The position numbers and the translations under genes were made by a program. The notes under the pieces were generated by a model. It was not told where the DNA came from. It ran no database searches and worked only from the letters and a program-made list of their open reading frames with translations. Shown here piece by piece: positions 1,350-22,657 of a DNA stretch of 33,608 bases (positions are counted from its first letter, which is position 1; every line of letters starts with the position of its first letter). Origin of the DNA: Gemmatimonadota bacterium (GTDB taxonomy: Bacteria; Gemmatimonadota; Gemmatimonadetes; Palauibacterales; Palauibacteraceae); the NCBI GenBank assembly GCA_029861425.1, contig JAOTZH010000017.1, positions 1 to 33,608 on the forward strand. Reading direction: 5' to 3'.

Positions 1350-1389
1350 TGATACGGTATCACCGTGGTTCATGGTACGGTTTGATACC
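1350..1389. promoter_or_regulatory. Dyad in the divergent promoter region, candidate operator
   Basis: Three copies of TGATAC occur within 40 bases: forward at 1350-1355, reverse at 1357-1362, forward at 1383-1388. The first two form the perfect palindrome GATACGGTATC (1351-1361). A larger inverted repeat pairs GGTATCACCGT (1356-1366) with ACGGTTTGATACC (1377-1389), with a two-base bulge. It lies between the divergent starts at 1240 and 1425, just upstream of the sulfatase operon, where an operator would be expected. No bound protein can be named. Confidence 0.45.
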
Positions 1390-1424
1390 TGCCCGCCGAC
1401 CTCGCACGCGATCAGGTTGGTTCC

Positions 1425-1718: not shown

Positions 1719-1719
1719 C

Positions 1720-2286: not shown

Positions 2287-2351
2287 GCAAACAGGATATC
2301 CGGAACACCGGTTTGAGTTCTCACGATCGGCAGAGATCGAAAGGAGTCGAA

Positions 2352-5707: not shown

Positions 5708-5718
5708 GGAGTCGGCTG

Positions 5719-8334: not shown

Positions 8335-8559
8335 GCGGAGCCTCGTTCGTTCGATGCGCCACGGATCGAGGGCTTCAGGTCCGGGATGAGACTGTCCGGA
8401 GAACCGCAGACCCCGAACGAAAGTAGGCCACAAATCTAGCAGGTTTCCAGCTTGCTTCAAGTCGGCGAGAGCGGGATCGAGGACCGTGCGGCCGGCTCGA
8501 TGGCGCCAGGCAGGAACCACGAACAAGCTCTCCCGCGAAGGCCGGCTCGCGGGTCGTAA

Positions 8560-9546: not shown

Positions 9547-9760
9547 GACGGGCTCCTGCGGTTCGAGCGACGGGTCATGGTCCCCCCGTGGAGTTCGAGT
9601 GAGGCCGAAAGGTGGTTACCCACGGACTGATCCATCAAGACACTCATCGTCGACCGGCTCCGACGGGACGGGTTCGGGCCGCGTCCTTGCCGTCGCGAAG
9701 CGGTCGATCCACCATGCGAGGCGGCGCCCCGAGAGCTCTCCGACGCACGAGCCGATAACG

Positions 9761-10624
9761 ATGCGACTCACGGTCATACTCAGCACCTACAACGCGCCCC
9801 GGCGGCTGGGGCTGGTGTTGACCGGCTACGAGGAACAGAAGTTCGACGGATTCGACATCGTCGTTGCCGACGACGGGTCTACGGACGCTACCGGAGAGTT
9901 GATCGAGGAGCACCGATCCCGCGGTCGGCTATCGCTCTCGCACGTTTGGCACCCGGACGAGGGCTTCCGGAAATGCGCGATCCTCAATCGGGCCATCGAG
10001 GCGGCGACCGGCGAATACCTCGTGATCAGCGACGGGGACTGCATCCCGCGCCCGGACTTCCTGGGAGTCCACGCGCGCCTCGCCCGACAGGGGCGTTTTC
10101 TGTCCGGCGGGCGGTGTCAGCTGACGCGTGAGTTGAGCGACTCGCTCGAGACGGACGATGTCGCGTCCGGCCGGGTGTTCGACCCGGCGTGGTTGGCGAG
10201 GTGTCGCGGCCTGGCACGTCCGCGGGACGGCATGAAGCTTCGAAGCCCCTCGTTGTCGATCCTGCTGGACCGGATCACCCCCACCCGAGCCACCTGGAAC
10301 GGTCACAACGCCTCCGGGTGGCGGCGCGACATCGTCGAGGTGAACGGCTTCGATGAGCGCCTGGGGTACGGCGGGGAGGACCGCGAGCTGGGCGAGCGCC
10401 TCAGCAACCACGGCGTCCAGGCCTTCCAGATCCGGCACCGGGCGGTGTGCTTCCATCTCGACCACGATCGCGGCTACGTGGACCCAGCGGTCGTGAAGCG
10501 CAACGACGAGATCCGGCGCGCGGTCACGAGCGGGAGCCGGCCCCACTGGACCGAGCACGGGATCGTGAAAGCGGGTACGGAGGCTACACCGGAGACGGCC
10601 ATGGAAGGGCCCGCGGGACTCTAG
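9761..10624 (+). CDS. Family 2 glycosyltransferase with galactosyltransferase-like C-terminus
   Basis: ATG 9761 is the first start that gives the typical GT-A opening (MRLTVILSTYNAPRRLG); the upstream in-frame extension has no start with better support. The 287-residue product shows VVADDGSTD (34-42) for nucleotide-sugar binding, DGDC (91-94) as the DxD-type metal site and GGED (204-207) for the acceptor/catalytic region. The segment GHNASGWRRDIVEVNGFDE fits the second half of chondroitin-polymerase and galactosyltransferase-like GT2 enzymes. The stop TAG overlaps the stop of the convergent glycosyltransferase. It is the only plus-strand GT of the locus. Donor and acceptor sugars are unknown. 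Confidence 0.87.
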   Translation: MRLTVILSTYNAPRRLGLVLTGYEEQKFDGFDIVVADDGSTDATGELIEEHRSRGRLSLSHVWHPDEGFRKCAILNRAIEAATGEYLVISDGDCIPRPDFLGVHARLARQGRFLSGGRCQLTRELSDSLETDDVASGRVFDPAWLARCRGLARPRDGMKLRSPSLSILLDRITPTRATWNGHNASGWRRDIVEVNGFDERLGYGGEDRELGERLSNHGVQAFQIRHRAVCFHLDHDRGYVDPAVVKRNDEIRRAVTSGSRPHWTEHGIVKAGTEATPETAMEGPAGL

Positions 10625-11427
10625 ACGAATCGGTCGATCCCCTCGGCCGCGCGGATCGAGGGAGACTCGAGGCGTTCCTCGAAACGCCGCGTGTTGTCTG
10701 GCGACTCCTCGCCCTCCGCATGCCACAGATGCAGGACCGGCACCGCGTGTCGGCCTTCTTTTCGCTTCACTCCGCCTCGAATCAGCCGCACGACAAGGTC
10801 GAAATCCTCGTTCCCCCAACCCACATAAGAGGAGTCGAATCCGTTCACGGCGATCAGGTCCTCGCGCCAGAGGCCGAGATTGCACCCGGTGACCCGTCGC
10901 CACTCGCCGCCGGAGAGCTTTCTGAGGGGGCCCAGGGGAAGCGTCACCAGCGGTGCGAACCGATCGATTCGACCGCGGAAGCGCTCACGCAGCCACCGTG
11001 CGCGAGGCCACCGGTGGGCCGGCTCGCGCGCCGCGAGCACCTCGTCGCTCAGATCCCGGTCCATTCTCACCCGCGTCCCCCGAACGAAGAACCCGCGCTC
11101 CGATAGCCGGGTGTGGGCCGCGACGAAGCGGGTCGGAGCAATGCAGTCCCCATCGAGGAACACCAGATAGTCCGCGTCCGTAGCGGCGGCCGCCCGGTTG
11201 CGGATCTCGGCCAGGCGAAACCCGCGGTCTTCGTGACGCACGTGCCGGACGGAGAGGCCTCGGGTCTCGGAAAACGACGCGATCGCGTTCCGGGTCGAGT
11301 CCCCCGAGCCGTCGTCCGCCACCGTGATCGAGAAGTCGCGGCAGGTCTGATCCGCCAGACTCTCCAGTGAAGCGCGAAGCGCGTCCGGCCGCTCATAGGT
11401 CGAGACGATGACCTCGATCCGCGTCAT
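10621..11427 (-). CDS. Family 2 glycosyltransferase, tandem paralog A
   Basis: The frame extends upstream to 11502, but the extra residues overlap the preceding gene's end; ATG 11427 (MTRIEVIVSTYERPDALR) gives the canonical GT-A start and 268 residues. VADDGSGDST (37-46) and DGDC (92-95) mark the nucleotide-sugar and metal sites; GWGNEDFDL near the C-terminus supplies the ED pair. The sequence aligns over its length with the gene at 11462, including FRGRIDR, LPLGP, CNLGLWREDLIAVNGF and VPVLHLWH, so the two arose by tandem duplication. The gap to that gene is 34 bases. It is the last gene of the minus-strand glycan operon, ending in a CTAG shared with the convergent GT. Confidence 0.87.
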   Translation of the reverse strand: MTRIEVIVSTYERPDALRASLESLADQTCRDFSITVADDGSGDSTRNAIASFSETRGLSVRHVRHEDRGFRLAEIRNRAAAATDADYLVFLDGDCIAPTRFVAAHTRLSERGFFVRGTRVRMDRDLSDEVLAAREPAHRWPRARWLRERFRGRIDRFAPLVTLPLGPLRKLSGGEWRRVTGCNLGLWREDLIAVNGFDSSYVGWGNEDFDLVVRLIRGGVKRKEGRHAVPVLHLWHAEGEESPDNTRRFEERLESPSIRAAEGIDRFV

Positions 11428-11461
11428 CGGGCCCGATCTCGCGCGCCGCCGCCCCGCAGGA

Positions 11462-12268
11462 TCAAGCCTGTGGCTCCAGGCCGCGAGTGGCTCGGAACCC
11501 ACGCGACCTCAGCCGTTCCTCGAACACCCGCTCGTTCTCGGGATCCGCAGATCGCTCCGGGTGCCAGAGATGAAGGACCGGGACGGCGTATCGTCCCTCC
11601 TTCCTCCGCACTCCGTATCGGATCAGCCGCAGGGCGAGATCCACGTCCTCCGGCCCCGGCCCAGCGATCTCCTCCTCGAACCCCCCGATCGCGAGCAGGT
11701 CATCCCGCCACGCGGCCACGTTGCAGCCCTTCACCCCCTTCCATTTTCGTCCGCGCAGCAGTCGGGTCGGTCCGAGCGGGAGACGGAAGAGCGGGGAGGC
11801 GCGATCGATTCGGCCGCGAAGGCGATGTGCGAGCCAGCGGCCGGCGCTCCACTCGTGCGCCGCGACGCGCCCGCCCAGGATCTCCGTGGTCAGCGATTCC
11901 CCGATCATGATGCGGCTTCCACGGACGAAACGGCCGGACTCCGCGAGCTTCGCGTGAGACCTCACGAAGTCGGGACGAACCAGGCAATCGCCGTCGATGA
12001 AGATGAGATAATCCGCGGGCGTCTCGATAATCGCCTTGTTCAGGACGGTCGATTTTCGTGGCCCCTCATCCGGCTGCCACACGTGTCGAAACGCCGTCGC
12101 GGTGGATCCTCCGAGCTCTTCGATGACGCGTTTCGTGGCGTCCGTCGATCCGTCGTCGGCGACCGTGACGCTGAACGGTTCATACGTCTGCGCGGTCAGG
12201 CTCGTGAGGACGGCACGCAAAGCGTCGGGGCGGTCATAGGTCGCGACGACGACCGAGATCTCAGTCAT
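11462..12268 (-). CDS. Family 2 glycosyltransferase, tandem paralog B
   Basis: ATG 12268 overlaps the stop of the upstream sulfotransferase by 8 bases. The 268-residue product has the GT-A start (VVVATYDRPDALR), DDGSTDAT (38-45), DGDC (92-95) and a C-terminal GPGPEDVDLALRLIRYG region. It is the paralog of the gene at 10621. It keeps HVWQPDEGPRKSTVLNKA, whereas the paralog has a diverged HVRHEDRGFRLAEIRNRA. Such differences in the acceptor side suggest that the two transfer to different positions or use different donors. Overlapping frames place it in one operon with three sulfotransferases. Sugar specificity is unknown. Confidence 0.87.
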   Translation of the reverse strand: MTEISVVVATYDRPDALRAVLTSLTAQTYEPFSVTVADDGSTDATKRVIEELGGSTATAFRHVWQPDEGPRKSTVLNKAIIETPADYLIFIDGDCLVRPDFVRSHAKLAESGRFVRGSRIMIGESLTTEILGGRVAAHEWSAGRWLAHRLRGRIDRASPLFRLPLGPTRLLRGRKWKGVKGCNVAAWRDDLLAIGGFEEEIAGPGPEDVDLALRLIRYGVRRKEGRYAVPVLHLWHPERSADPENERVFEERLRSRGFRATRGLEPQA

Positions 12269-13076
12269 CGAAGTGCTCTGCCCACCGCGAGGAGGCGAAG
12301 TGCCGCTCGAGCTCGGCGAAGTTCGTGATCGCCTCAGCCAGCGGCCGTACTTCCTGTTTCACGAGCGGCGCCCGGAGAGGCTCTGGTCGAAGGTCGAGAA
12401 ACTCCTGCAGGCTGGTCGCGCGCGCGCCGCGATCCGCGACGAAGTCCTCGTAGTCGATGTCGAGCTTTCGGTGGTCGCCGAACAACGTGGAGTATCGGTC
12501 ATGCTGCGTCGTCGTCTCGCTGAAGAAACGCTCGCACGACGCGGGCTGGAGGTGCACCTGGAGCGCGCTCCGGTTCTCCGGAGATCGCGTCCCGTACACC
12601 CGCGTCTTCCTCGCGATCACCAGCGAGAGATAGGTCCGCAGGACATTGCGTCGACGCAGGTGGACCACACGCAGATCCTGTCGGGCCCGAAGCCACTCCC
12701 GGGCGGACGCGAAGATCGGCCGCTCCACGTGGGCGTAGAAGACCTTGCAGCCCACAGCCGCGATTTCGTCCCGGTAGCCGGCGAACACGCCGGTCTCGAA
12801 GAAGTGCACCGGAGCGAGATCTCTCGCCCGCCGAGCCACACCCCTCCAGTTCTCGAACCCCGGAGTGTTGTATCCCGCTTTCGCCGGGTTCAGGACCTCG
12901 CCGAACGAGACGACGCCGGGGTGCGAGCGGAGGGTCTGGACCAGGAGCGAGGATCCCGTCCGCGCCGTGCCAAGGATGATGAACGGGACATATCCGCGGT
13001 TGTCGCCGGCCCACTCGTCCGGAAACGGAGGCTGAAACGGGGCGGCGAGACGCTCGCCCAGTGTCCGGACGCTCAT
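12261..13076 (-). CDS. Sulfotransferase 1 (PAPS-dependent, Stf0-like type)
   Basis: ATG 13076 overlaps the stop of sulfotransferase 2 as ATGA, and gives 271 residues; the open frame upstream to 13157 is not supported. The 5'-phosphosulfate loop is ILGTARTGSSLLVQTL (about 35-49), and the 3'-phosphate motif is VVHLRRRNVLRTYLSLVIARK (137-157), with Arg141 and Ser151 at the expected places. The following SHPGVVSFGEVLNP is typical of sulfotransferases acting on carbohydrates such as the Stf0 and keratan-type families. It would move sulfate from PAPS to a sugar hydroxyl in the cytoplasm. It lies between two glycosyltransferase sets in a coupled operon. Acceptor unknown. Confidence 0.85.
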   Translation of the reverse strand: MSVRTLGERLAAPFQPPFPDEWAGDNRGYVPFIILGTARTGSSLLVQTLRSHPGVVSFGEVLNPAKAGYNTPGFENWRGVARRARDLAPVHFFETGVFAGYRDEIAAVGCKVFYAHVERPIFASAREWLRARQDLRVVHLRRRNVLRTYLSLVIARKTRVYGTRSPENRSALQVHLQPASCERFFSETTTQHDRYSTLFGDHRKLDIDYEDFVADRGARATSLQEFLDLRPEPLRAPLVKQEVRPLAEAITNFAELERHFASSRWAEHFDD

Positions 13077-13948
13077 TCGTATCCCACCAGCCGCATCGCG
13101 GAGGCGAACGTCGACGCGACCTGTCCCGCGATCGCCTCGTCCATCTCGTCTCGCCAACCGTCGATCCGACCCTTGCGGATGAACCTCCCCTCCCCCCGGG
13201 CGCGGCCCTCGTACGCTTCCGCCCCGTGTCGCTCCTCGACCCGCCGCATGGCGTCGAAAGAGCCGCGTTCCGCTACCTCCGACAACCGCCGATCGTCGGC
13301 GTCGAGATCGAGGAACGATACGATGCGACGGAGCTCGTCCTCCCGGTCGAGAACGAGGTCCTCGTACCTGACCACAAGGACGTTTCCTGACCGTGCGGCT
13401 CGCCGACTGTTACGACGGACCTGGTGATCCCAGCGGATCAGGTGCTTGTTCCAATAGCGGAAGCAACCGCTGCCGTACATGTACTGCTCCACGAAGGACC
13501 CGATTCCGGTCGTCCGGTCGTCGAAGAGCACCCGGTACATGTGCCAGAAGGAGACGAGGACGGCGCGAGGGTCGCGGACCAGATAGAGGATGCGTGGATA
13601 TGCGCGTGCATGTAGGGGGTACTCGTTCCGGAAGACGCGCGGATCGGGTAGCGGGGCGTAGTTCGCGATGTCGCGGTCGCGTCCATGCACGAAGGGAACG
13701 AAGTCCCCCACATTGAGGAGATTGATGTCGCTCGAGCGATCGGGCTGGATGAGCAGCGCGAGCATGTACGCGACCCACGTGTTGCCGGACTTCGGGTGGC
13801 CGACGAGGAACGTGTCGGTCGGCCTCAGCGAGGCCCGGAACTCCGGCTCGTGACGGCGGGCTCGCGCCTCGTAGTAGCCGAGGTAGAGCTTCGCCCGGCC
13901 GAACCAGCGCTTGAGCGTGGCCTCCTCCGGCCCGATCACCGTGTCCAC
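13073..13948 (-). CDS. Sulfotransferase 2 (Sulfotransfer_1 type)
   Basis: The GTG at 13948 has GGAGG close upstream and gives 291 residues; a GTG at 13939 would overlap the previous stop as GTGA and is the alternative. The open frame reaches 14023 without support. Motifs match the classic SULT layout: FLVGHPKSGNTWV (47-59) with the catalytic-type Lys53, YLVRDPRAVLVSF (122-134) for the 3'-phosphate, and RKGRIDGWRDEM (258-269), the counterpart of the RKG-xxGDWK motif that closes over PAPS. It is therefore a different subfamily from its two neighbours. Acceptor is probably a glycan or lipid made by this locus; that is inference from context. Confidence 0.85.
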   Translation of the reverse strand: MDTVIGPEEATLKRWFGRAKLYLGYYEARARRHEPEFRASLRPTDTFLVGHPKSGNTWVAYMLALLIQPDRSSDINLLNVGDFVPFVHGRDRDIANYAPLPDPRVFRNEYPLHARAYPRILYLVRDPRAVLVSFWHMYRVLFDDRTTGIGSFVEQYMYGSGCFRYWNKHLIRWDHQVRRNSRRAARSGNVLVVRYEDLVLDREDELRRIVSFLDLDADDRRLSEVAERGSFDAMRRVEERHGAEAYEGRARGEGRFIRKGRIDGWRDEMDEAIAGQVASTFASAMRLVGYE

Positions 13949-14712
13949 GGCACCTCCAGCCCGAGGGCCGCCAGCCGCGCGGCGTGTCCGGAGTAGCGGG
14001 CCTCGAGGTCGGATCTCACCCAATCGGGCATCCGCACCGGGTCGGAGGACCCGACGGTCCGGCCAAGGGTTCCCGGCTCGAGCATGATCGTGTCGTCTAC
14101 CTCGAGGAACCGGAAGAGGTCACCGAGGAGCCCCGCCGGGCGTCCCCGGATGTCGTCGTAGAACCCGACGAACACCCGATCCTCGCCGAAGACACCCCGC
14201 CATCGCTCGATGCAGCCCGCGTAGTCGCTACGCGCGACCACGGAGTCCGATTCGAAGAACTCGATCAGCTCATCGCGCGTGAGGTCTTCGACCTCGCGCC
14301 CGATCCAGATGGGAAAGTCGTTTCGCACCTGAGACCATGTGCGCTCGACCGGATCACGCATGAGATAGATGATCTTCGTGTCGGGCATCCACTCGCCGAC
14401 GCGCCGCACCGTGTCATCGTCGAGTGTGGCATACGCGGGCGTGATCTCGCCGCGAAGTCTTCTCCGGGGCGGTCGTTCGCGTACCCGGTGTGCGTAACGC
14501 AGCCGGTTGACGAGATCGCGGACCGATCCCGACGCGCCGCGCTCTCCCAGCTTCCGGTCGAAGAAATGGATCTCCTTCCGTTCGATTTGGATCTGGGGGT
14601 GCGCCCGCAGCTGGGTCGCCAGCCACGTCGTCCCGGATCGCATGGCGCCGATCCCCAGGAACCCGGGCATCAGCCCCCGAAACCACGTCGTTCGATCCGT
14701 GAGCGCGGTCAC
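13936..14712 (-). CDS. Sulfotransferase 3 (heparan-sulfotransferase-like)
   Basis: GTG 14712 overlaps the stop of the upstream glycosyltransferase as GTGA and gives 258 residues; an ATG at 14670 is possible. The longer frame to 15162 covers the glycosyltransferase in another phase and is not real coding. The PAPS loop is GAMRSGTTW (22-30), with Arg in place of the usual Lys. KEIHFFD (46-52) and GEITPAY (88-94) are hallmarks shared with N-deacetylase/sulfotransferase and 3-O-sulfotransferase-type enzymes. The 3'-phosphate motif is IYLMRDPVERTWSQ (115-128). It would sulfate an amino or hydroxyl group of a polysaccharide. Its stop overlaps the next gene. Confidence 0.85.
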   Translation of the reverse strand: MTALTDRTTWFRGLMPGFLGIGAMRSGTTWLATQLRAHPQIQIERKEIHFFDRKLGERGASGSVRDLVNRLRYAHRVRERPPRRRLRGEITPAYATLDDDTVRRVGEWMPDTKIIYLMRDPVERTWSQVRNDFPIWIGREVEDLTRDELIEFFESDSVVARSDYAGCIERWRGVFGEDRVFVGFYDDIRGRPAGLLGDLFRFLEVDDTIMLEPGTLGRTVGSSDPVRMPDWVRSDLEARYSGHAARLAALGLEVPWTR

Positions 14713-15575
14713 TGGACCTGGCGGTCCAGAAAGTCGCGCGGAAGGGGTCGAAACCGCCGCCGCGACCCGGTATCCCCCTCCTTGACCGCCTGAAAGTTCT
14801 CCCACTCGCGTCGCTTCCGGTCGCTCGGAAACTCGCCGGTCGACCAGTGGCTGAACTCGTCTTCCTCGGCGTACTTGAGCTCGTAGAAGCAGACCGGCCG
14901 GAGCGTGCGGACGCGGGCGTCGGGGGCCCGCCCGATCCCTTCCCAGTGCTCGTATTTCCCGAACCGGTACTCCAGCTCGTTCGGGAACATCATGACTTCC
15001 TTGTTCACCTCCCCGCGAGCCTCGAAATAGTCGCCGGACAGGTCCCGATACACCGTTTGTCCCTTCAGCTTCCAGCACTCGTTCGAAACCCTCGCGATAC
15101 GAGCGAGCAGCCGCAGGAACGCCCCCCTCGCGCGGCGTCTCAGCACCATGTCCCCGTCCCATTTACACACGTACTTCGAACGGCAGTGTGAAAGCCCGAA
15201 GTTGTTGAAGTAGACGAGGCTGTGGACGGAGTCCTCCGGGGTAGCGTCGTGCTCCGGTCCGTAGCGGGCGAGAGTGTGGGGATAGGAGACGATGCGGAGC
15301 CGACCTTCGGCATCGTGCCTCGCCGCCAAGGCGCGGGCGATCTCGACGGTCGAGTCGGTAGAGCCGTTGTCGACGAGTACGAGCTCGTCGAAGACCTCGA
15401 TGATGGACAGGAGGCAGGGCTCGAGCTTTCGCTCTTCGTCCTTCACCCGCAGGAGCGCCGTCACGGTCGGACTCCGATCCGGGTGCGGGAGAACGAGGTC
15501 GAACTCCGGCAGGCTCTCACGGTTCGACAGCCGGAACTCGGCCCCTGGGACGGTACTGTCCGGCGCTGCGTTCAT
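14709..15575 (-). CDS. Family 2 glycosyltransferase, first gene of the sulfation operon
   Basis: ATG 15575 with GGAG about 5 bases upstream gives 288 residues. The GT-A core runs from TVTALLRVKDEERKLEPCL through ELVLVDNGSTDST (65-77) to KWDGDMVL (138-145), the metal-binding DxD. The KDEE start resembles WaaE/SunS-type inverting GT2 enzymes rather than the other three GTs of this locus. The C-terminal half is rich in aromatic residues and charges and shows no membrane segment, so it is a soluble or peripheral cytoplasmic enzyme. It heads a six-gene operon in which nearly every junction overlaps, and it is divergent from the propeller gene at 15737. Confidence 0.85.
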   Translation of the reverse strand: MNAAPDSTVPGAEFRLSNRESLPEFDLVLPHPDRSPTVTALLRVKDEERKLEPCLLSIIEVFDELVLVDNGSTDSTVEIARALAARHDAEGRLRIVSYPHTLARYGPEHDATPEDSVHSLVYFNNFGLSHCRSKYVCKWDGDMVLRRRARGAFLRLLARIARVSNECWKLKGQTVYRDLSGDYFEARGEVNKEVMMFPNELEYRFGKYEHWEGIGRAPDARVRTLRPVCFYELKYAEEDEFSHWSTGEFPSDRKRREWENFQAVKEGDTGSRRRFRPLPRDFLDRQVQ

Positions 15576-15671
15576 CGGCTCCAGGGTTCATGAGGGGTGC
15601 TCGAATGGCCGGCCGGCGCGGACGACGAGTAGACGCAAGGTCGGGCGACATCACATAATCTGCTTCGCCAC

Positions 15672-15701
15672 ATCTCGCGGCAACGAGATCCGCGGCCGCG
15701 G
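15672..15701. other. Palindromes in the gap between divergent operons
   Basis: ATCTCG (15672-15677) and CGAGAT (15684-15689) can form a 6-bp stem with loop CGGCAA, followed at once by the palindrome CCGCGGCCGCGG (15690-15701). They sit 36 bases before the propeller gene start and in the shared upstream region of the glycosyltransferase operon. A regulatory role is possible but unproven. Confidence 0.25.
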
Positions 15702-15736
15702 TCTCGCGAGGATGCAGCAACGACCGGCAACGGAGA

Positions 15737-16942
15737 ATGACCGCGCACACCCTCTATGACTTCGTGACGGACCGTCTGGGGCCGCGACTCCACGTCGTGC
15801 ACCCGAGTGGACGCTGGTTGTTCGTGGCGAACTTCGCGTCCAACGACCTCTCGGTCCTGTCGATCGACCCCGATAGCGGCCGGCTGGCCGACGTCCCGGG
15901 ATCTCCCTACCCGGTCGGCGAGGGTCCCCGCGGGGTGGGCGTGGACCCCTCCGGCGACTTCGTCTTCGCGGCGAACTGGACCGGGCATTCGCTCTCGACG
16001 TTTCGCGTGTCTCCTGACGGGAGCCTCCAGGAGGTCCCCGGGTCTCCGTTCGCGACGGGTCGAAACCCCAGGGGCACCCGGTTGGCGCACGGGGGTCGAT
16101 TCGCGTACGTGGCGAACGCGGGCTCCGGCGACATCACCGGGTTCACGGTCGACCGGACGACGGGGAGTTTGACGCCGTGTCCTGGCTCGCCCTACCCCTG
16201 CGCCCCGGAGCCGCGCGCGATGACGGTGAGCTTCGACGACTCGTTCGCGTTTACGGTTCACGGCCCGTCCGCCGAGATCTCCTCGTTCAGGATCGACGCG
16301 GAGTCCGGCGACCTCGCGCCGGCCGACGGATCGCCGTTCTCGACCACCGCGGACCCGCGCTTCGCGGTCGTCAGCCCGGACGGGACCCGGGTGTTCGTCG
16401 CCTGTCAGGAGTCGAATCGGCTGCACAAATTCGATCTCGAGGAGCAGACGGGGGTCCTTCACGAGACGGAGCCTCCCCTTCGCACCCGTCGCCGCCCTTT
16501 CCAGGCCCTCGTCCACGAGAGCGGGCGCTTTCTGTACGTCGCGAACCAGCGTTCCGGCTCGATCTCGGGCTGGTGTCTCGACACCCGAGCCGGCAGGCCC
16601 CGGCGGCTGCGCGGATCGCCCTGGGCGACGGGAAAGCGACCGGTCTGGCCGACGTTCGATCCCTCGGGTCGGTTCCTCTATGTGGCGAACAAGCGCTCGG
16701 GCGACATCTCCGGGTTCGCCATCGATTCCGATTCCGGGCGTCTGCGGCCACTGCCCGGTTCACCCTACCGGGCGGGCGAGCGACCGCGGGCGGTCACGAT
16801 GGACCCGGCGGGCCGGTTCGCGATCGCTGTGAACGAGGCGTCCGATGACGTGTCGGTGTTCGCGAGCGACCCGCGCAACGGCGTCCTGACGCCCGTCCCC
16901 GGATCGCCGTTTCCGGCGGGCAGCATTCAGCGGTCGGAATGA
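15737..16942 (+). CDS. Beta-propeller repeat protein (lactonase/YncE-like)
   Basis: The 401-residue product consists almost wholly of eight repeats of about 48 residues. Each has a strand like FLYVAN, a turn NxxSGDISGF, then a DxxSGxL and PGSP segment; PGSP-like turns fall near residues 53, 100, 148, 196, 291, 339 and 387, with one degenerate unit near 250. This is the pattern of lactonase/YncE-type propellers. The residues needed for 6-phosphogluconolactonase activity cannot be judged from sequence alone. There is no signal peptide at the chosen ATG, and the ribosome site (CGGAGA) is very close, so the start is uncertain. It overlaps the deacetylase gene as ATGA, which ties it to glycan work. 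Confidence 0.85.
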   Translation: MTAHTLYDFVTDRLGPRLHVVHPSGRWLFVANFASNDLSVLSIDPDSGRLADVPGSPYPVGEGPRGVGVDPSGDFVFAANWTGHSLSTFRVSPDGSLQEVPGSPFATGRNPRGTRLAHGGRFAYVANAGSGDITGFTVDRTTGSLTPCPGSPYPCAPEPRAMTVSFDDSFAFTVHGPSAEISSFRIDAESGDLAPADGSPFSTTADPRFAVVSPDGTRVFVACQESNRLHKFDLEEQTGVLHETEPPLRTRRRPFQALVHESGRFLYVANQRSGSISGWCLDTRAGRPRRLRGSPWATGKRPVWPTFDPSGRFLYVANKRSGDISGFAIDSDSGRLRPLPGSPYRAGERPRAVTMDPAGRFAIAVNEASDDVSVFASDPRNGVLTPVPGSPFPAGSIQRSE

Positions 16943-17916
16943 AGACCGTCCGGCAGCCCGTCATCCTCATCTACCACCGGGTGACTCGCCTGGAGTCGGA
17001 CCCGCATGGCATCGCGGTCCGCCCCGACCGGTTCCGACGTCAGATGGAGCTGCTCGTGGAGAGGCGACGGCCGGTCACGCTGTCTCGTGCGGTCGATGCC
17101 GTTCTCGACGGCACGGCGGAGGACGGCCTGGCGGCGGTCACGTTCGACGATGGGTACGCGGACAACGCGGGAATCGCGCTGCCCGTTCTGGAAGAACTCG
17201 GCGTGCCGGCCACCGTCTTCGCCGTGAGCGGGTCGCTCGGCTCGGGGCGCGAGTTCTGGTGGGACGAGCTCGAGGCGCTGTTGCTCGGGTCGCACCCGCT
17301 CCCTACCGGGCTCCGGATCCGTGTCGGTGAGAGAAACGTTGCGGTGACGCTCCCCGCGGACGAGTGGTCCGAGACCGTCCGACGTTCGACTCGCGGCTGG
17401 TCGAGCCGCACTCCCGGCTCCCCTCCGACAGCCCGGCACGGCCTCTATGCGACTCTCTTCGACTCCCTGCGGGGGTTAAGCGGCGAGGCGCGGGGGCGGG
17501 CGCTCGACGAGCTCGGACGCTGGGCCGAGTGGACGCCCTCCACGCGGGAGACCCACCGACCCCTCGACGCCGGTGGCCTCGCAAGGCTCGCCGCGAGCGG
17601 GGTCGTCGAGATCGGGGCACATACCGAACACCATCCGGCGTTGTCCTGCCTGTCGCGCACCCGGCGGTGGTCGGAGATTTCGGACGGCCGCCGCCGTCTC
17701 GAGGAGATGGTCGGCCCCGTACGCCACTTCGCGTATCCCTTCGGGGACTCGGGGGGATCGAGACGCCTCGTGCGCAAGGCCGGGTTCGACGCTGCGTTCA
17801 TCACGACCCCAAAAGGAGCGCGGCCGCCGGACCGTTACCGGATCCCCCGAACGTACGTGGGGGATTGGGACGAGTCCGAATTCGCCAGGAGGATCCTCAC
17901 CTCCGCCTCTGCCTGA
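16939..17916 (+). CDS. NodB-type polysaccharide deacetylase
   Basis: ATG 16939 overlaps the previous stop as ATGA. The 325-residue product has the NodB homology signature: ILIYHRV near the start, TFDDGYADN (68-76) with the catalytic and metal Asp70/Asp71, HTEHHP (228-233) with metal His228 and His232, and FAYPFGDSG (about 257-265). An insert of about 100 residues between the first two motifs is variable. There is no signal peptide, so it may work in the cytoplasm on a lipid-linked precursor. NodB-type enzymes remove N-acetyl (or O-acetyl) groups from amino sugars. With sulfotransferase 3 it could expose amines for N-sulfation, as in heparin-type glycans; that is inference. Confidence 0.88.
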   Translation: MKTVRQPVILIYHRVTRLESDPHGIAVRPDRFRRQMELLVERRRPVTLSRAVDAVLDGTAEDGLAAVTFDDGYADNAGIALPVLEELGVPATVFAVSGSLGSGREFWWDELEALLLGSHPLPTGLRIRVGERNVAVTLPADEWSETVRRSTRGWSSRTPGSPPTARHGLYATLFDSLRGLSGEARGRALDELGRWAEWTPSTRETHRPLDAGGLARLAASGVVEIGAHTEHHPALSCLSRTRRWSEISDGRRRLEEMVGPVRHFAYPFGDSGGSRRLVRKAGFDAAFITTPKGARPPDRYRIPRTYVGDWDESEFARRILTSASA

Positions 17917-17932
17917 ACCCGCGAAGTCGTTG

Positions 17933-17968
17933 ATTGCGATCCAGCACGGTAAGCAGCCGGATCGCGAT
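17933..17968. other. Hairpin in the gap before the FemAB gene
   Basis: ATTGCGATCC (17933-17942) can pair over 10 positions, with one G-T wobble, with GGATCGCGAT (17959-17968) around a 16-base loop. It lies 17 bases after the deacetylase stop. No T-run follows, so it may be a weak terminator or a leader structure. The rest of the 169-base gap (17917-18085) is GC-rich and holds further short palindromes but no gene. Confidence 0.35.
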
Positions 17969-18085
17969 GCGGTGCCGTCGCCAAGCATTATTGGGGCGAG
18001 CGGCTTAGCGTGTTGTCCGGCGTGCTAGCGTCGGCCGAGCCCGGCTAGGCCGGCAAACCCCGACCGTCGACCCGACAGGAGCGTC

Positions 18086-19117
18086 GTGGCGGAGACTCGT
18101 CGTCAGATCGAGATCGAGGCGAGCGCTGATCCCGACGGACTGGACGCGTTCGTGACGCGTCAGTCCGGCTGGACCGCATTCCACCTGTCCCCCTGGCGAC
18201 GGGTGATCGAGCGTTCGTTCGGGCACCGCTGCGAGGTGCTCGAGGCCACGCATGACGGGGAGACGGTCGGGGTGCTTCCGCTGGTGACGGTGAAGAGCCT
18301 CCTGTTCGGCCACTACATCGTCTCGATGCCGTTCGTCAGCTACGGAGGCCCGCTCGGGACGGACGAAGCGATCGCTGCCCTGTGCGAGCATGCGTCGACG
18401 CTGGCCGAGCGCCGCTCCGCGGATCTGCTGGAGCTACGCGCGCGCGGACCGACACCGGTCGACATGCACGTATCGACCCGCAAGGTCACGGTCGTTCTGG
18501 ACCTTCCGGGCGACCCCACCGCGTTGTGGGATGGGCTGAAGGCGAAGGTTCGCAGCCAGGTCCGACGACCCATGAAGGAGGGGTACGAGACGCGTTTCGG
18601 CGCTGACCAGATCGATCCGTTCTGGACGGTGTTCTCACGCCACATGCGGGATCTGGGGACGCCCGTCCTGCCGCGCCGGTTCTTTCACGATCTCGGATCG
18701 GAGCTCGGAGAGACGGTGACGTTCGGGTGCGTGTACGACGGGGATGCGCCAATCGCCGCCGGCTGCACGATCGAGTGGGGGGAAGAGGCCGAGATCACCT
18801 GGGCCTCTTCGCTTCGGAGCTACAACCGCACCGCCCCGAACATGCTCCTCTACTGGTCCTTCCTGGAGCGATCGATCGAGGCCGGTCACAAGAGGTTCAA
18901 CTTCGGACGCTGCTCGCCGGGGGAGGGAACGCACCGCTTCAAGCTCCAGTGGGGCGGGCGGGACGAGCCGCTGCACTGGCTGCAGCGCACGGGCGGACGG
19001 AGCAAGACGCCATCGCCCGACGACAGGGGGTTCGGGCTCGCCGTCCAGGTATGGCAGAAGCTTCCGCTGGGTGTGGCGAACCTCCTGGGCCCGCGTATCG
19101 TCCGGAACATCCCGTGA
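18086..19117 (+). CDS. FemAB-like / GNAT-fold protein of exopolysaccharide systems
   Basis: GTG 18086 has AGGAG 6-7 bases upstream. The 343-residue product resembles the FemAB-related proteins found with PEP-CTERM/exopolysaccharide loci: WTAFHLSPWRRVIERSFGH near the start, ETVGVLPLVTVKS and a first acetyltransferase-like half, then RSQVRRPMKEGYE and DGDAPIAAGCTIEWG, NMLLYWSFLERSIEAGHKRFNFGRC and HRFKLQWGG. These proteins have two GNAT folds and transfer acyl or aminoacyl groups. No exosortase or PEP-CTERM target gene is in the window. It is 13 bases upstream of the DegT-type gene. A role in modifying an amino sugar of the local glycan is plausible, since the next gene is a PLP enzyme of sugar type. 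Confidence 0.83.
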   Translation: MAETRRQIEIEASADPDGLDAFVTRQSGWTAFHLSPWRRVIERSFGHRCEVLEATHDGETVGVLPLVTVKSLLFGHYIVSMPFVSYGGPLGTDEAIAALCEHASTLAERRSADLLELRARGPTPVDMHVSTRKVTVVLDLPGDPTALWDGLKAKVRSQVRRPMKEGYETRFGADQIDPFWTVFSRHMRDLGTPVLPRRFFHDLGSELGETVTFGCVYDGDAPIAAGCTIEWGEEAEITWASSLRSYNRTAPNMLLYWSFLERSIEAGHKRFNFGRCSPGEGTHRFKLQWGGRDEPLHWLQRTGGRSKTPSPDDRGFGLAVQVWQKLPLGVANLLGPRIVRNIP

Positions 19118-19130
19118 CACCTTGAGGACG

Positions 19131-20312
19131 GTGCCGCCGGCACGGTCTCCCATCGCGCCGTCTTCGATCGCCCGTGGCGCGACCGCGGTGTTCACCGCCG
19201 GCGGACGACGGGGTCTCCTCGGCTCGCTTCTCGAGCTGTACGGCGCCGACGCGGGTCTCCTCGCGAACAGCGGCACGGCGGCCCTGACGCTCGCGCTCCG
19301 CGCCGCGCGGGCGTCCGGACGCGACACGGCAGCGTTCCCCGCGTATTGCTGCTACGATCTCGTAACCGCCGCCGTTGGGGCGGGCGTCCGCGTCCTCCTC
19401 TACGACGTCGTGCCCGAAACCCTCGAACCCGACGAATCCTCTCTCGAGCGTGTCCTCGACCGAGGGGCGCGGGTTCTGGTCGGAGCTCATCTGTTCGGGG
19501 TGCCGATGTCTGCCGACCGGCTGCGCGAGCGCTGCCTCGAGAGCGACGTTTTGTTCATCGAGGACGCGGCCCAGGAAGCCGGTAGCCACGTGGCCGGCCG
19601 TCGCGCCGGAGCGTTCGGGTCGTTCACCGTCCTGTCGTTCGGACGGGGCAAGGGTCTTACGGGCGGGTCGGGCGGAGCGCTCCTCGCCCGGGACGATCAC
19701 GGAACCGACTTGTTGCGCGGGATCGGGGACCTGTCGCCAGGCGGTCGGGGAGCGGGTGACGTGGCGACCGCGACCGCCCTCTGGGTCCTCGGCCGGCCGG
19801 CGCTGTTCGGTCTGCCGCGCGCGATTCCGGGTCTCCACGTGGGTGAGACGGTGTACAGACCTCCGACAGAACCGACCGGGATCTCGGCGGCGGCCGCGTC
19901 GATCGTTCGGGCGAACATGCGGCTGCTTCCCGGGGAGGTCGACGCTCGCTCGCGGACGGCGACCGATCTGATCGCCGCGTGTCCGCCGGACTCTTCGGTT
20001 CGTCCCGTCCGCCCGCATCGAGACGACGTCGAGGCCGGGTGGCTTCGCCTCCCGGTTCTGATCGATGACGAAGTCGTCGCCAGTGCGGCCGCGACGGCCG
20101 GGCGACTGGGGATCGCGAGCGGGTACGCGAAGCCGCTGAGCGAAGTCGAAGCGGTCCGCCCGCTTCTGGTCGACCCCGCGGGCACCTACCCGGGGGCGAG
20201 CCGGCTCGCCACGGCACTGTTTACACTCCCCACGCATGGCTGGTTGTCGGAGCGGGACCGGGATGCGCTGGAGCGTTGGTTGGGCGGGTTGAAGCGAGGG
20301 GCAACAGGGTGA
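19131..20312 (+). CDS. DegT/DnrJ/EryC1-family PLP-dependent aminotransferase
   Basis: GTG 19131 follows GAGG closely; a TTG at 19122 is the alternative. The upstream frame to 18744 overlaps the FemAB gene and is not used. The product has 393 residues. NSGTAALTLALRAAR (46-60) binds the PLP phosphate, FIEDAAQEAG (142-151) supplies Asp145, and SFGRGKGLTGGSGG (169-182) carries the likely PLP lysine K174. This layout is that of sugar aminotransferases of surface polysaccharides and antibiotics, which add an amine to a keto-sugar nucleotide. The typical start is shorter here and the C-terminal half is divergent. Overlap of its stop with the multicopper oxidase start (GTGA) links both genes. Confidence 0.85.
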   Translation: MPPARSPIAPSSIARGATAVFTAGGRRGLLGSLLELYGADAGLLANSGTAALTLALRAARASGRDTAAFPAYCCYDLVTAAVGAGVRVLLYDVVPETLEPDESSLERVLDRGARVLVGAHLFGVPMSADRLRERCLESDVLFIEDAAQEAGSHVAGRRAGAFGSFTVLSFGRGKGLTGGSGGALLARDDHGTDLLRGIGDLSPGGRGAGDVATATALWVLGRPALFGLPRAIPGLHVGETVYRPPTEPTGISAAAASIVRANMRLLPGEVDARSRTATDLIAACPPDSSVRPVRPHRDDVEAGWLRLPVLIDDEVVASAAATAGRLGIASGYAKPLSEVEAVRPLLVDPAGTYPGASRLATALFTLPTHGWLSERDRDALERWLGGLKRGATG

Positions 20313-22657
20313 GCCGGACCCGCCGGGGGGTACGCGTCCGCGTGCCAGGTCCAGCCGCAGCGCTCGTGTCGCTCGCCGCCGTCCTCTCCGTGGAGTCGAC
20401 CGCGGCGCAGGTGCAGGGGGTTTCGCCTCGTTGCGCCGACCGGCCGGCGGCGACCGGAGCCCTCGTCGGTGGCCTGGTCGACGATGCGCCCGCCGGAGGT
20501 CCGCGCGCCGCGGGCGGCTTCGGCCAACGGCCGGCGTCCGATCTCCACTGCATCGACCTGTTCCCGACCGCTCGCGGGGGCGGGGCGGCCGGCGTGATCG
20601 AGCTCGTGCGGCCCTCCACCCCGTTCGGCGTGGCCGTCGCGCCTTCCGGGCACCACGTCAGCGATCTCGTCGCCTGGATCGCGGGGCTGCCGGACCCGTC
20701 GACTCTCGGCGACTACACGACGTTCGTGGCCTGGGCGACCCCGCTCACGCTCGACCCGGTCGTGAACATCGGCGTCGTCACGAACGGCGAGAACCGCCTG
20801 GATGCTGTCGCGTTCAACAAGTACCTGATCATGGTGAGCGCCGAGGCGTCGGCGGTCGTGACGGAGCGCGAGGGACCCCTCGTGCTCCGCGGCCGGTCGC
20901 CCTCGAGCAAGATGGAAGCGCACGACCTGCTCGCGACCGCCCCATCCGCCACTCAACGAGGGGCCGGGCGGCGGCCGGATCGGGGTCCGAACGCCGAGCC
21001 GTGGACACGACCGCCGGGCTACCCCGGAGTCCCGATGCTGCCGGGTCTGCTGGATCTCGAGCCCCACTCCGATCCATGGCTGCCCGACAGGGATCCGACG
21101 ACGCTGCCCGAGGTGCGGCCCGGCGACGTGGTCGACTTGCCGGACGGCGGGACGCTCGATCTCGAGGCCGGGTTCGTGCGGCGCACGGTCGGCAATCGAA
21201 CCCTGACGATGATGGCCTTCAACGGTCAGCAGCCCGGGCCCCTGATCCGAGTCATGGCAGGCTCCACCATCTTCGTGAACTTCACGAACAACACGTCGCT
21301 CCCGACCGCGGTCCACTGGCACGGTGTGCGGCTCGACAACCGGTTCGATGGGGTACCCGGCGTCACGCAGGATCCTGTCGAGCCGGGCGAGAGCTTCCGC
21401 TACCAGATCTTCTTCCGCGATGCGGGGATCTACTGGTACCACCCGCACCACCGCGAGGACATCCAGCAGGAGCTCGGGCTCTACGGCAACATGCTCGTCG
21501 CGTCGCCAGATCCGGACTACTACGGGCCGGCGCACCGCGACGAGGCGCTGATCCTCGACGACCTCCTGCTGGATGACGACGGCGTCGTCCCGTTCGGCGA
21601 CCAGTCGGCGAACTACATGCTCATGGGCCGCTTCGGAAACACGATGCTCATCAACGGGGAACCGACGGCCCTCCCGGACACCCCGCTCGGGTATGTCCTC
21701 GATGTGGATAGTGGAGAGGTCGTCCGCTTCCATGTCACGAACGCGTCGAACACCCGGACCTTCAACCTGTCCATGATTCAGAGAGGCGGGCTCGATGCAG
21801 TGGCTGACGCCGCAGTCGACCCGGCCCGTGCGCTGGATTCCCGCCTGCGCATGAAGGTGGTGGCGTCCGATGTCGGTCGGTTCGAGCGGGAGGAGTTCGT
21901 CTCCTCGCTCGTGATCGCCCCCGCCGAGCGCTTCGTCGTCGAGGTGCAGTTTCCCGAAGAAGGCTCCTACTTCCTCGTAAACCAGGTTCAGGGGATCAAC
22001 CACCGTCAGGGCGTCTTTCGCGAGGAATGGCGAACCCTCGGGGTGATCCGGGGCGGGGCCGACCGCGCCGAGCCGGACCTGTCGCGCGCGTTCGCGAGGT
22101 TGCGGGAGAACGCCGACGTCATCGCGGAGATCGACGGGCTGCGCCCCGAGTTCGACCGACCGGTCGATCATCAGCTCGTCATGACGCTGTCTGTCGACAG
22201 TCTCCCGCTCCCGATCGAGCAGTCCATGAACTACGACTGGATCTACTTCAATCCCGTCGAATGGACCGGCACGATGCCGATGATGAACTGGGCGACCACA
22301 GGTCGGGAGGTGCAGTGGCGGCTCCTCGATCCCGACACCGGCGCCGAGAACGAGGACATCGAGTGGTCGTTCCGCGTGGGGGACGTCGTGAAGATCCGCG
22401 TGCACAACGACCGCGACGCGTTCCATGCGATGCAGCACCCGCTTCACATCCACGGACAGCGGTTTCTCGTCCTCGAGCAGGACGGGGTCGAGAACGACAA
22501 CCTCGTCTGGAAGGACACGGTCCTGTTGCCCGTCGGATCGACCACGGACATCCTCCTTGAGCTGTCGAACCCCGGTCGCTGGATGGTCCACTGCCATATC
22601 GCCGAGCACCTCGAATCCGGTATGAAGCTCGTGATGGAAGTGGCCGGCCCGTCGTAG
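20309..22657 (+). CDS. Exported multicopper oxidase with extra N-terminal domain
   Basis: GTG 20309 overlaps the previous stop as GTGA, giving 782 residues. A hydrophobic stretch at 14-33 with STAAQ looks like a signal peptide. All four copper-ligand regions are present: HWHG (336-339), HPHH (378-381), HPLHIHG (710-716) and HCHIAEHLESGM (761-772), with Met772 as the likely axial type 1 ligand. Cupredoxin domains thus span about 265-780. Residues 75-210 form an additional region (DLHCIDLFPTARG, GHHVSDLVAWIAGLPD, YTTFVAWATPLTLDP, NKYLIMVSAEAS) without a known function to me; a low-complexity linker rich in Arg and Pro follows. It would oxidise phenols, metals or other donors in the envelope. 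Confidence 0.9.
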   Translation: MSRTRRGVRVRVPGPAAALVSLAAVLSVESTAAQVQGVSPRCADRPAATGALVGGLVDDAPAGGPRAAGGFGQRPASDLHCIDLFPTARGGGAAGVIELVRPSTPFGVAVAPSGHHVSDLVAWIAGLPDPSTLGDYTTFVAWATPLTLDPVVNIGVVTNGENRLDAVAFNKYLIMVSAEASAVVTEREGPLVLRGRSPSSKMEAHDLLATAPSATQRGAGRRPDRGPNAEPWTRPPGYPGVPMLPGLLDLEPHSDPWLPDRDPTTLPEVRPGDVVDLPDGGTLDLEAGFVRRTVGNRTLTMMAFNGQQPGPLIRVMAGSTIFVNFTNNTSLPTAVHWHGVRLDNRFDGVPGVTQDPVEPGESFRYQIFFRDAGIYWYHPHHREDIQQELGLYGNMLVASPDPDYYGPAHRDEALILDDLLLDDDGVVPFGDQSANYMLMGRFGNTMLINGEPTALPDTPLGYVLDVDSGEVVRFHVTNASNTRTFNLSMIQRGGLDAVADAAVDPARALDSRLRMKVVASDVGRFEREEFVSSLVIAPAERFVVEVQFPEEGSYFLVNQVQGINHRQGVFREEWRTLGVIRGGADRAEPDLSRAFARLRENADVIAEIDGLRPEFDRPVDHQLVMTLSVDSLPLPIEQSMNYDWIYFNPVEWTGTMPMMNWATTGREVQWRLLDPDTGAENEDIEWSFRVGDVVKIRVHNDRDAFHAMQHPLHIHGQRFLVLEQDGVENDNLVWKDTVLLPVGSTTDILLELSNPGRWMVHCHIAEHLESGMKLVMEVAGPS

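Follow-up and report, generated by a model that had tools for sequence, protein, structure and literature searches.

Sulfated glycans of bacteria

Rhizobial sulfotransferases of the NodH/Stf0 type put sulfate on lipid-linked sugars. Among bacteria, sulfated extracellular polysaccharides have been called exclusive to cyanobacteria in the report on synechan of Synechocystis 6803, whose xss cluster holds sulfotransferases among several glycosyltransferases together with its own Wzx, Wzy and co-polymerase (PMC8205485). In Pontiella sulfatireligans, a putative cluster for a sulfated glycosaminoglycan has been described, and the measured polymer is mainly N-sulfated; according to the report on this cluster, no prokaryotic sulfotransferase active on glycosaminoglycans was known (PMC7356697). 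Cobetia marina has a solved sulfated capsule (PMC11766843), and sulfotransferase genes were reported in metagenome-assembled genomes (MAGs) of several phyla from Shark Bay mats (PMC9723792).

Few bacterial groups are documented to make sulfated glycans, and a module kept throughout a genus would add the Gemmatimonadota. The locus considered here belongs to a member of this phylum from the family Palauibacteraceae; Palauibacter is a marine genus, some members of which are named after sponge and coral hosts. The whole stretch of DNA analysed, 33,608 nt long, is called the window below. The genome is a MAG with 90% completeness and 2.8% contamination. The main text of the Palauibacterales paper never mentions the word sulfotransferase, and literature searches, with most subscription papers and preprints outside their reach, returned no paper on Gemmatimonadota sulfotransferases in sponges, on a sulfotransferase with O-antigen and sulfated lipopolysaccharide (LPS), or on a glycosyltransferase-sulfotransferase fusion; for Gemmatimonadota, LPS and sulfotransferases together they gave one study, on a snail.

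Gene content of the locus

The initial annotation listed glycosyltransferases, sulfotransferases, a deacetylase, a FemAB-like transferase, an aminotransferase and a propeller protein as one locus for a sulfated, N-modified glycan, and Pfam and TIGRFAM profile searches found every named gene in its place (Table 1). One of the four GT2 matches is weaker than the others. The assembly of 3.85 Mb contains 27 PF00535 matches, four of them within a span of 5.7 kb, which is above chance (given one match, the Poisson probability of three more is about 1e-5). On the minus strand, GT_D-ST3-ST2-ST1-GT_C-GT_B follow one another as a chain of overlapping genes that converges on GT_A.

Table 1. Features of the locus, with positions in the window, strand and profile matches (E-values)
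Feature	Positions	Strand	Profile match	Remark
Window (33,608 nt; GCA_029861425.1, contig JAOTZH010000017.1, Gemmatimonadota bacterium, Palauibacteraceae)	1 to 33,608	forward		
GT_A, GT2 with GT7C-like C-terminal part	9761..10624	+	PF00535 1e-18, PF02709 4.6e-6	converges on GT_B
GT_B, GT2 like chondroitin synthase and beta-1,4-galactosyltransferase	10621..11427	-	PF00535 1.2e-18, PF02709 2e-11	
GT_C, second GT_B-type gene	11462..12268	-	PF00535 1.9e-20	52% identical to GT_B; extra at this locus
ST1, Stf0/NodH-like sulfotransferase	12261..13076	-	PF13469 1.2e-12	extra at this locus
ST2, SULT-fold sulfotransferase	13073..13948	-	PF00685 1.7e-33	
ST3, heparan 3-OST/NDST-like sulfotransferase	13936..14712	-	PF13469 2.6e-13	
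GT_D, GT2-type with DGD motif	14709..15575	-	PF00535 3.4e-9	
Lactonase-type seven-bladed beta-propeller	15737..16942	+	PF10282 1.8e-48	no hydrophobic N-terminus
NodB-type polysaccharide deacetylase	16939..17916	+	PF01522 3.2e-17	no signal peptide by hydropathy
FemAB/GNAT transferase, XrtA/PEP-CTERM-associated type	18086..19117	+	PF13480 1.4e-18	separate block
DegT-type sugar aminotransferase	19131..20312	+	PF01041 5.3e-30	start 19122, 19131 or 19188

Several starts in the list of open reading frames are too long. For ST3 the most likely start is the GTG at 14712, which gives an overlap of 4 bases with the GT_D stop, and the two genes are apparently translationally coupled in this genome. A minus-strand frame opposite the propeller (15572-16516) has no Pfam match and is probably a shadow frame. 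As had been claimed, scanning 31 frames of the window gave no match to a flippase, polymerase or exporter family; several of the frames are without any family assignment, and an unrecognised membrane protein may be among them. NodA and NodC found no match in the window either. Hydropathy gave no strongly hydrophobic stretch in the core proteins, the propeller or NodB. Contamination of the contig is unlikely, since several genes match congeners (MCO 62-69%, amidohydrolase 75-78%, a threonine-dehydratase-like gene 80-82% in two loci), but the trees are rooted at the midpoint, their window branches are long and most of their forks are open.

In the PDB, GT_B matches chondroitin synthase (4.9e-16), part of which it covers. 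By sequence, the nearest solved relatives of GT_D are the peptide/protein glycosyltransferases GmaR and SunS (N-terminal part); its fold search returned SunS and, for the same half, also heparosan synthase 2 and chondroitin polymerase. ST1 matches a PDB entry named LPS sulfotransferase NodH (9vki, 3.6e-8). The predicted model of ST2 (pLDDT 85) matches SULT structures at E 1.7e-10; Glu stands where SULT enzymes have their catalytic His, and R-N-E stands in 14 of 14 alignment rows. For ST3 the best PDB match is the bacterial sulfotransferase 3rnl (8.8e-10), followed by HS 3-OST-3A1 (1.4e-7), and by fold it matches 3rnl, 3-OST and NDST1.

The sequences carry the expected PAPS- and metal-binding motifs: GTARTGS in ST1, PKSGNTW and RDPR in ST2, SGTTW and RDP in ST3, and TFDDG and HTEHHP in NodB. 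Judged by these motifs, putative PAPS-type sulfotransferases adjoin four GT2 genes, the arrangement looked for in a sulfated-glycan locus.

Conservation of the core

Five genes, GT_D, ST3, ST2, GT_B and GT_A, make up a core that 12 of 16 relatives' loci keep in full and in the same order, GT_A being present in 14 of the 16 compared. GT_B is 58-61% identical to its counterparts in 13 congener loci and 50.5% to that in locus L027. ST2 has a strong match in 14/16 congeners; genomes G004 and G012 are without it. Contig scanning with an alignment-based profile recovered 14 loci, and scanning with a single protein none. GT_C and ST1 are additions at this locus outside the core, ST1 having no match within the 18 relatives' loci searched. 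Conservation of the core across the genus does not extend to NodB or FemAB.

GT_D and ST3 lie in one stop-free open frame in all 12 loci with both genes (two of which give identical proteins), which places sugar transfer and sulfation in one pathway. The model of the fusion protein is moderate (mean pLDDT 73.7, pTM 0.52), with the linker and parts of the sulfotransferase half weak. The fusion offers a single protein for testing sugar transfer and sulfation together.

Across 395 Gemmatimonadota genomes, strong GT_D matches occur in 15 and ST2 in 17, and all 15 are common to both (hypergeometric 2.6e-25, a statistic that ignores kinship). The GT_D profile included both outside-genus rows, so that there only the absence of GT_D without ST2 is informative; the searches scored the best 5-6 candidates per genome, and absences are therefore soft. 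Genomes G013 and G149 have ST2 without GT_D. That such a coat could help to hide the cell from a host was suggested earlier as speculation; the G013 locus, whose record derives from seawater reads, keeps most of the core. Plasmid searches gave 11 records, all below 60% identity and none covering 80%, and a further 76, all below 60%. An ST2 relative in locus L056 has genes for ATP sulfurylase (1.5e-90) and for APS kinase (3e-56) next to it. Together with the fusion and the GT_D/ST2 co-occurrence, this pair for PAPS synthesis makes the sulfated glycan proposed earlier a well-supported predicted product.

The tie of NodB and the propeller to the core comes through another Gemmatimonadota family. 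In L054 their orthologues stand divergent to GT_D-ST2 (propeller 44%), in L128 NodB alone does so, and in L053 a propeller fragment lies beside ST2. The window NodB groups with the NodB proteins of L054 and L128. In 15/16 congeners NodB found no match, and de-N-acetylation is thus not general to the module.

FemAB and DegT stand apart. FemAB matches TIGR03019 (1.1e-90; 304 bits against a cut-off of 260) and was found in 0/16 congeners. Of six further FemAB loci, three have a DegT homologue adjoining FemAB or about 1 kb away from it, and in G021 and G043 FemAB stands beside XrtA-system deacetylases (TIGR03006). The window NodB is no deacetylase of this kind, having no TIGR03006 match at E 0.1. 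The same genome carries an exosortase on a 4.8-kb contig, C72 (PF09721 3.1e-53; EpsH subfamily, 137.5 bits against 105.6; 145.6 of the 208 bits set for XrtA, under that cut-off), so that a TIGR03019-type FemAB and an exosortase occur together, as in XrtA/PEP-CTERM systems; none of the 16 congeners gave an exosortase. Also on C72 are a GT2 gene and a frame resembling low-molecular-weight tyrosine phosphatases (59.7 bits, short of the equivalog cut-off). FemAB-DegT is best read as a separate exosortase-type pair, probably of a second exopolysaccharide pathway next door. One conserved pathway for all the genes can be set aside on these grounds. Comparison of neighbourhoods leaves the earlier idea of one locus with one product standing for the core, with NodB and the propeller attached, but not for the FemAB-DegT block.

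LPS context and PAPS supply

LpxC was found in 20 of 20 genomes and WaaA in 19 of 20, the present genome having both; here an MsbA-like ABC protein adjoins WaaA (464 bits, short of the 602 required for MsbA). The LPS-type context of the module itself comes from two outgroup loci only. In L054 the genes within 5 kb of GT_D-ST2 include one for a lipid A acyltransferase (PF03279, 9.7e-35) and one for a Kdo/WaaP-type kinase (PF06293, 9.5e-13). In L055, the surroundings of ST2-GT_D include an ABC2 permease, an ABC ATPase of export type (best models TagH and Wzt, both under cut-offs) and a CDP-glucose 4,6-dehydratase over its cut-off. No LPS genes stand beside the core in the Palauibacter loci examined. 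The missing flippase and polymerase are better explained by growth on the LPS core or another glycolipid, and export with lipid A would account for both absences.

The assembly yielded neither an APS kinase nor a PF01507 protein, nor an orthologue of CysN, and APS kinase is present in 16/16 congeners; as the MAG is 90% complete, the absence may be a gap. In G001, the neighbour of CysD and CysNC (both by Pfam) is, judging from its sequence, a polyketide-synthase-like gene.

Proposed function and alternatives

The reading we prefer, at a probability of about 0.5, is that a cytoplasmic module assembles a short oligosaccharide, sulfated and at this locus also partly de-N-acetylated, probably on the LPS core and for export together with lipid A. 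GT_A, GT_B/GT_C and GT_D would add sugars singly to a lipid-linked acceptor, most likely the LPS core (lipid A-Kdo), and ST2 and ST3, with ST1 in this species, would move sulfate from PAPS to the added sugars, GT_D and ST3 working as one bifunctional unit. NodB would strip the N-acetyl group from one amino sugar, and the resulting amine may then be left as it is or accept a sulfate group; the propeller would be accessory. The finished oligosaccharide would be taken out together with lipid A by an MsbA-type exporter, needing no dedicated flippase or polymerase. FemAB and DegT would serve the exosortase-type pathway. The gene content and its conservation, the fusion, the co-occurrence, the motifs and folds, and the LpxC and WaaA genes come directly from the analyses; we infer the acceptor, the sugars, the sulfate positions, the NodB substrate and the export route of this module. 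In favour of this reading are the fusion, the GT_D/ST2 co-occurrence, the neighbourhoods in L054, L055, L056 and L128, the lipid A and Kdo genes with the MsbA-like protein, the motifs and the lack of strongly hydrophobic stretches. Against it stand the PAPS-synthesis genes missing from this MAG, the Palauibacter cores without adjoining LPS genes, ST2 without GT_D in G013 and G149, the peptide/protein glycosyltransferases closest to GT_D, the 15 congeners with no NodB match and the two that lack ST2.

All eleven genes could instead form one exosortase-linked exopolysaccharide pathway whose repeat unit would be made and sulfated at this locus, with Wzx/Wzy-type export genes elsewhere and with DegT, NodB and FemAB making N-modified amino sugars. 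The FemAB score, the exosortase missing from all congeners, its neighbours on C72 and the deacetylases and DegT homologues near FemAB elsewhere speak for this; we consider it unlikely, as the genus keeps the core without FemAB or exosortase, the window NodB belongs with the GT_D-ST2-linked NodBs, and C72 is a short contig in a MAG with some contamination. A target other than LPS, namely a protein or a small secreted glycolipid or natural product, is given a similarly low chance. A glycoprotein may be the acceptor, since the solved relatives of GT_D act on peptides and proteins; ST2 shares its fold with cytosolic SULT enzymes, which act on small molecules, and the G001 neighbourhood fits such a product. 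Against it, GT2 and SULT folds are widespread, the GT_D fold search also lists polysaccharide synthases, the outgroup neighbours are of LPS and O-antigen type, and ST2 has replaced the SULT His.

That the genes are unrelated neighbours sharing a rough theme is very improbable: FemAB-DegT, ST1 and GT_C are not conserved with the rest, but the fusion in every locus, the overlapping frames, the order kept in 12 loci and the co-occurrence contradict this view for the core, and it holds for the FemAB-DegT block only. A heparin-like product, suggested earlier, draws on the likeness of ST3 to 3-OST/NDST and of GT_B to chondroitin synthase; as the main reading it was rejected, because the window showed no recognisable alternating GlcA/hexosamine polymerase and no recognisable uronic-acid gene. 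By sequence, the likeness to the heparin pathway appears to be a resemblance, a structural echo, and not membership. A narrower form, doubtful and less probable than either of the two low-chance alternatives above, is heparan-like N-deacetylation and N-sulfation on the LPS core: NodB would expose the amine, an ST2/ST3-type enzyme with a glutamate base would N-sulfate it, and the fusion would tie sugar transfer to sulfation. If true, some Gemmatimonadota would carry heparan-like sulfated LPS.

Comparison with known systems

GT_D plus ST2 would provide a search handle for other sulfated LPS. The module combines a genus-wide distribution with a natural glycosyltransferase-sulfotransferase fusion and with no recognised exporter. 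ST1 is a distant relative of the rhizobial NodH/Stf0-type enzymes by profile and PDB match, whereas ST2 and ST3 belong to other sulfotransferase groups. ST3 is like the animal NDST/3-OST enzymes in sequence and fold, and a deacetylase and sulfotransferases occur together in both systems; however, its closest solved relative is bacterial, the deacetylase here is a separate NodB-type protein, and the polymerase of the animal heparan pathway has no recognised counterpart in the window.

The grouping of sulfotransferases with several glycosyltransferases is shared with the xss cluster, but the Wzx, Wzy and co-polymerase described there were not recognised here, and the present locus has NodB and, in relatives, the fusion (PMC8205485). 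The Pontiella product is an exopolysaccharide shown by chemistry; the description of that cluster includes no NodB link or fusion (PMC7356697). The capsule cluster of Cobetia marina, as reported, likewise combines glycosyltransferases and sulfotransferases in a marine bacterium, and unlike the present locus it contains PAPS genes and the kpsETMD ABC exporter (PMC11766843).

Gene Content of the Locus

The gene types named in the initial annotation were all matched by Pfam and NCBIfam: four GT2 glycosyltransferases (GT_A–GT_D), three sulfotransferases (ST1–ST3), a NodB-type deacetylase, a FemAB-type transferase, a DegT aminotransferase and a Lactonase-type propeller. When likely starts are used, the minus-strand genes form a tight chain, GT_D-ST3-ST2-ST1-GT_C-GT_B. 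A sigma-70-like site at 15630–15659 in the divergent gap is a consensus match only, one of two such sites in 9300–20500 against a shuffle mean of 0.5. The reported lack of a flippase, polymerase or polysaccharide exporter was likewise borne out, with no Pfam match among the 31 window frames scanned. Hydropathy did not exceed 1.54 in the core proteins, propeller and NodB, and was 1.64 in FemAB.

Coordinates and strands of the genes at the sulfotransferase locus
Gene	Position	Strand	Remark
GT_A	9761–10624	plus	minus-strand chain converges on it
GT_B	10621–11427	minus	likely start
GT_C	11462–12268	minus	likely start
ST1	12261–13076	minus	likely start
ST2	13073–13948	minus	likely start
ST3	13936–14712	minus	likely start
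GT_D	14709–15575	minus	likely start
Propeller (Lactonase-type)	15737–16942	plus	
NodB	16939–17916	plus	
FemAB	18086–19117	plus	
DegT	end at 20312	plus	

Elsewhere in the window, 3272–6924 encodes a sulfatase (PF00884, 3.9e-46) whose N-terminus is hydrophobic, and a Porin_O_P-type frame comes after it; removal of sulfate from sugars may be a further ability of the organism. A short protein of the Omp85/BamA-like kind, with a single POTRA-like stretch, occupies 6973–8526, and the large protein of 29518–33606, which combines kinase, cyclase-like, AAA and TPR parts, reaches the contig end.

Contig C235, which the window spans from end to end, belongs to a genome of 3.85 Mb and 291 contigs (90.1% complete, 2.8% contamination). 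Read set ERR599156, named in the title of a congener record (L043, genome G013), is presumably from seawater. Relatives of the genome include 'Candidatus Palauibacter', among which the species names rhopaloidicola and poriticola are read here as referring to sponge and coral, respectively. Sponges, corals, marine sediments, soils and lakes are listed as Palauibacterales habitats in the consulted part of PMC10469786.

Conservation of the Core and the GT_D-ST3 Fusion

ST2 was strongly matched in 14 of 16 congeners (52–58% identity over aligned parts), with no match in G004 and a weak one (28%) in G012. Sixteen loci were fetched, from these 14 congeners, G012 and the family member G018. The claim of a single compact locus is supported for the core, since GT_A, GT_B, ST2, ST3 and GT_D occur together in 12 of the 16, and is not supported for FemAB, which is absent from all 16 congeners and is read as part of a separate pathway. 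In one locus (L036, G011) a contig end breaks the array and GT_D lies on a different contig; another (L027, G013) has GT_A, a GT_B/GT_C-type gene, ST2 and ST3 and is missing GT_D; the core was not found in L041 and L042. G013 also carries, near its core, a second ST2-like gene (L027, 6824–7648) 45% identical to that of the window. ST1 and GT_C look, from sequence comparison, like additions at the window locus, because ST1 was unmatched among 18 loci compared and GT_C shares 52% identity with GT_B. In place of the window's propeller-NodB-FemAB-DegT genes, congener loci carry rhodanese, FG-GAP and SelR genes before a shared multicopper oxidase (families scanned in L038 only; rhodanese- and SelR-like frames of L027 read from sequence).

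No other single observation ties glycosyl transfer and sulfation to one pathway as strongly as the fusion of GT_D with ST3. Both lie in one frame with no intervening stop in all 12 loci matching both (the identical rows of L037 and L038 each being counted), and Pfam places both domains of L038 in a single 585-residue protein. In the window the two are encoded in distinct frames, with a four-base overlap between the stop of GT_D and the start of ST3.

Across the phylum, with the best five to six candidates per genome scored, ST2 was found in 17 of 395 Gemmatimonadota genomes (the own genome, 13 congeners and three others) and GT_D in 16 (15 strongly, G026 weakly). Every one of the 15 genomes with strong GT_D has ST2; G013 and G149 have ST2 without GT_D. 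The chance of this overlap is 2.6e-25, genomes being treated as independent despite kinship. The figure of 4e-5 for genomes outside the genus leans towards agreement, since GT_D profile A2 already included the rows of G169 and G200, both found beside ST2.

Enzyme Folds and Active Sites

ST2 has the SULT fold (model pLDDT 85.4; best PDB E 1.7e-10). The histidine of the SULT K-T-H motif is catalytic, and heparan sulfotransferases use glutamate as the base. All 14 ST2 rows have R-N-E at the K-T-H position, so the glutamate may, judging from the alignment, serve as catalytic base as in heparan sulfotransferases. For ST3, the best PDB sequence match is the bacterial sulfotransferase 3rnl (8.8e-10), followed by heparan 3-O-sulfotransferase 3A1 (1.4e-7) with E-HFFD and T-P-x-Y aligned; the sulfotransferase half of the fusion model (mean pLDDT 73.7, pTM 0.52) matches 3rnl, NDST1 and 3-OST. 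ST1 is nearest to a protein named LPS sulfotransferase NodH. GT_B matches chondroitin synthase and beta-1,4-galactosyltransferase, and the N-terminal part of GT_D matches GmaR and SunS.

Outgroup Neighbourhoods and Accessory Genes

In L054 (G200) the order is propeller, NodB, divergent GT_D, ST2 and GT4, then a PLOD-type glycosyltransferase, a GT2, a lipid A acyltransferase and a Kdo/WaaP-type kinase. NodB is also divergent to GT_D-ST2-GT4 in L128 (G169), whose contig stops within NodB. Pairwise scores among the NodB proteins of L054, L128 and the window run from 148 to 169 bits, and none of the three exceeds 72 against the other NodB-like proteins compared; the window and L054 propellers are 44% identical. 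A propeller fragment adjoins ST2 in L053 (G149), where NodB was unmatched and GT_D gave no more than a short hit on a generic GT2. ST2 and GT_D of L055 (record titled Proteobacteria bacterium) lie near an ABC2 permease, an export-type ATPase and a CDP-glucose 4,6-dehydratase. In L056 (record titled Patescibacteria group bacterium; 467–3162) an ST2 relative (39%) adjoins APS kinase (3e-56) and ATP sulfurylase (1.5e-90), with a GT4 at the contig end. Taken together, such neighbours suggest glycans of the LPS or O-antigen type and a link with PAPS. NodB was unmatched in 15 of 16 congeners and weak in G004 (1.1e-9); de-N-acetylation is therefore not a general step.

FemAB scores above the cut-off of TIGR03019 (XrtA/PEP-CTERM-associated) and occurs in 7 of 45 genomes, the own genome included. 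A DegT homologue (38–44%) adjoins it or lies about 1 kb away in three of the six other FemAB loci, some on short contigs, and a TIGR03006 deacetylase adjoins it in G021 and G043. An exosortase is present in 3 of 45 genomes and in none of the 16 congeners; that of the own genome is on a 4.8-kb contig (C72; L094, 2358–3566) with a tyrosine-phosphatase-like frame and a GT2. FemAB-DegT is accordingly read as a separate exopolysaccharide pathway next to the core.

Export, Acceptor and PAPS Supply

A search of 20 genomes (the own genome, those of 11 congeners and eight from the order) found LpxC in every one and WaaA in 19, the miss being the 65% complete G042. An MsbA-like ABC gene (464 bits, below the 602-bit equivalog cut-off) shares a contig with WaaA in the own genome. 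Assembly of the glycan on lipid A would make a dedicated flippase and polymerase unnecessary, in keeping with the locus. The module does not adjoin LPS genes in Palauibacter, so this acceptor is put forward as probable.

APS kinase is present in all 16 congeners. Searches of the own assembly (90.1% complete) for an APS kinase, for a PF01507 protein and for a CysN orthologue were all negative; three matches to a CysNC query (best 34% identity) are taken to be other GTPases. Either a piece is missing from the MAG or PAPS is obtained otherwise. In the congener locus L181 (G001, contig C13, 1–11242), CysD and a CysN-APS kinase fusion adjoin a xanthine/uracil-type permease and a polyketide-synthase-like gene.

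Comparison with Known Systems

The heparin-like product proposed earlier was set aside: the polymerase feature was looked for in the window and not found, so the locus was kept out of the heparan pathway. It is assigned here to bacterial sulfated-glycan synthesis, as a variant form. So far as the consulted parts of the sources describe them, the systems for synechan (PMC8205485), the Cobetia capsule (PMC11766843) and the Pontiella GAG-like polymer (PMC7356697) share glycosyltransferases and sulfotransferases with the window locus, which is without a recognised exporter or PAPS gene and in addition has NodB and, in its relatives, the glycosyltransferase-sulfotransferase fusion.
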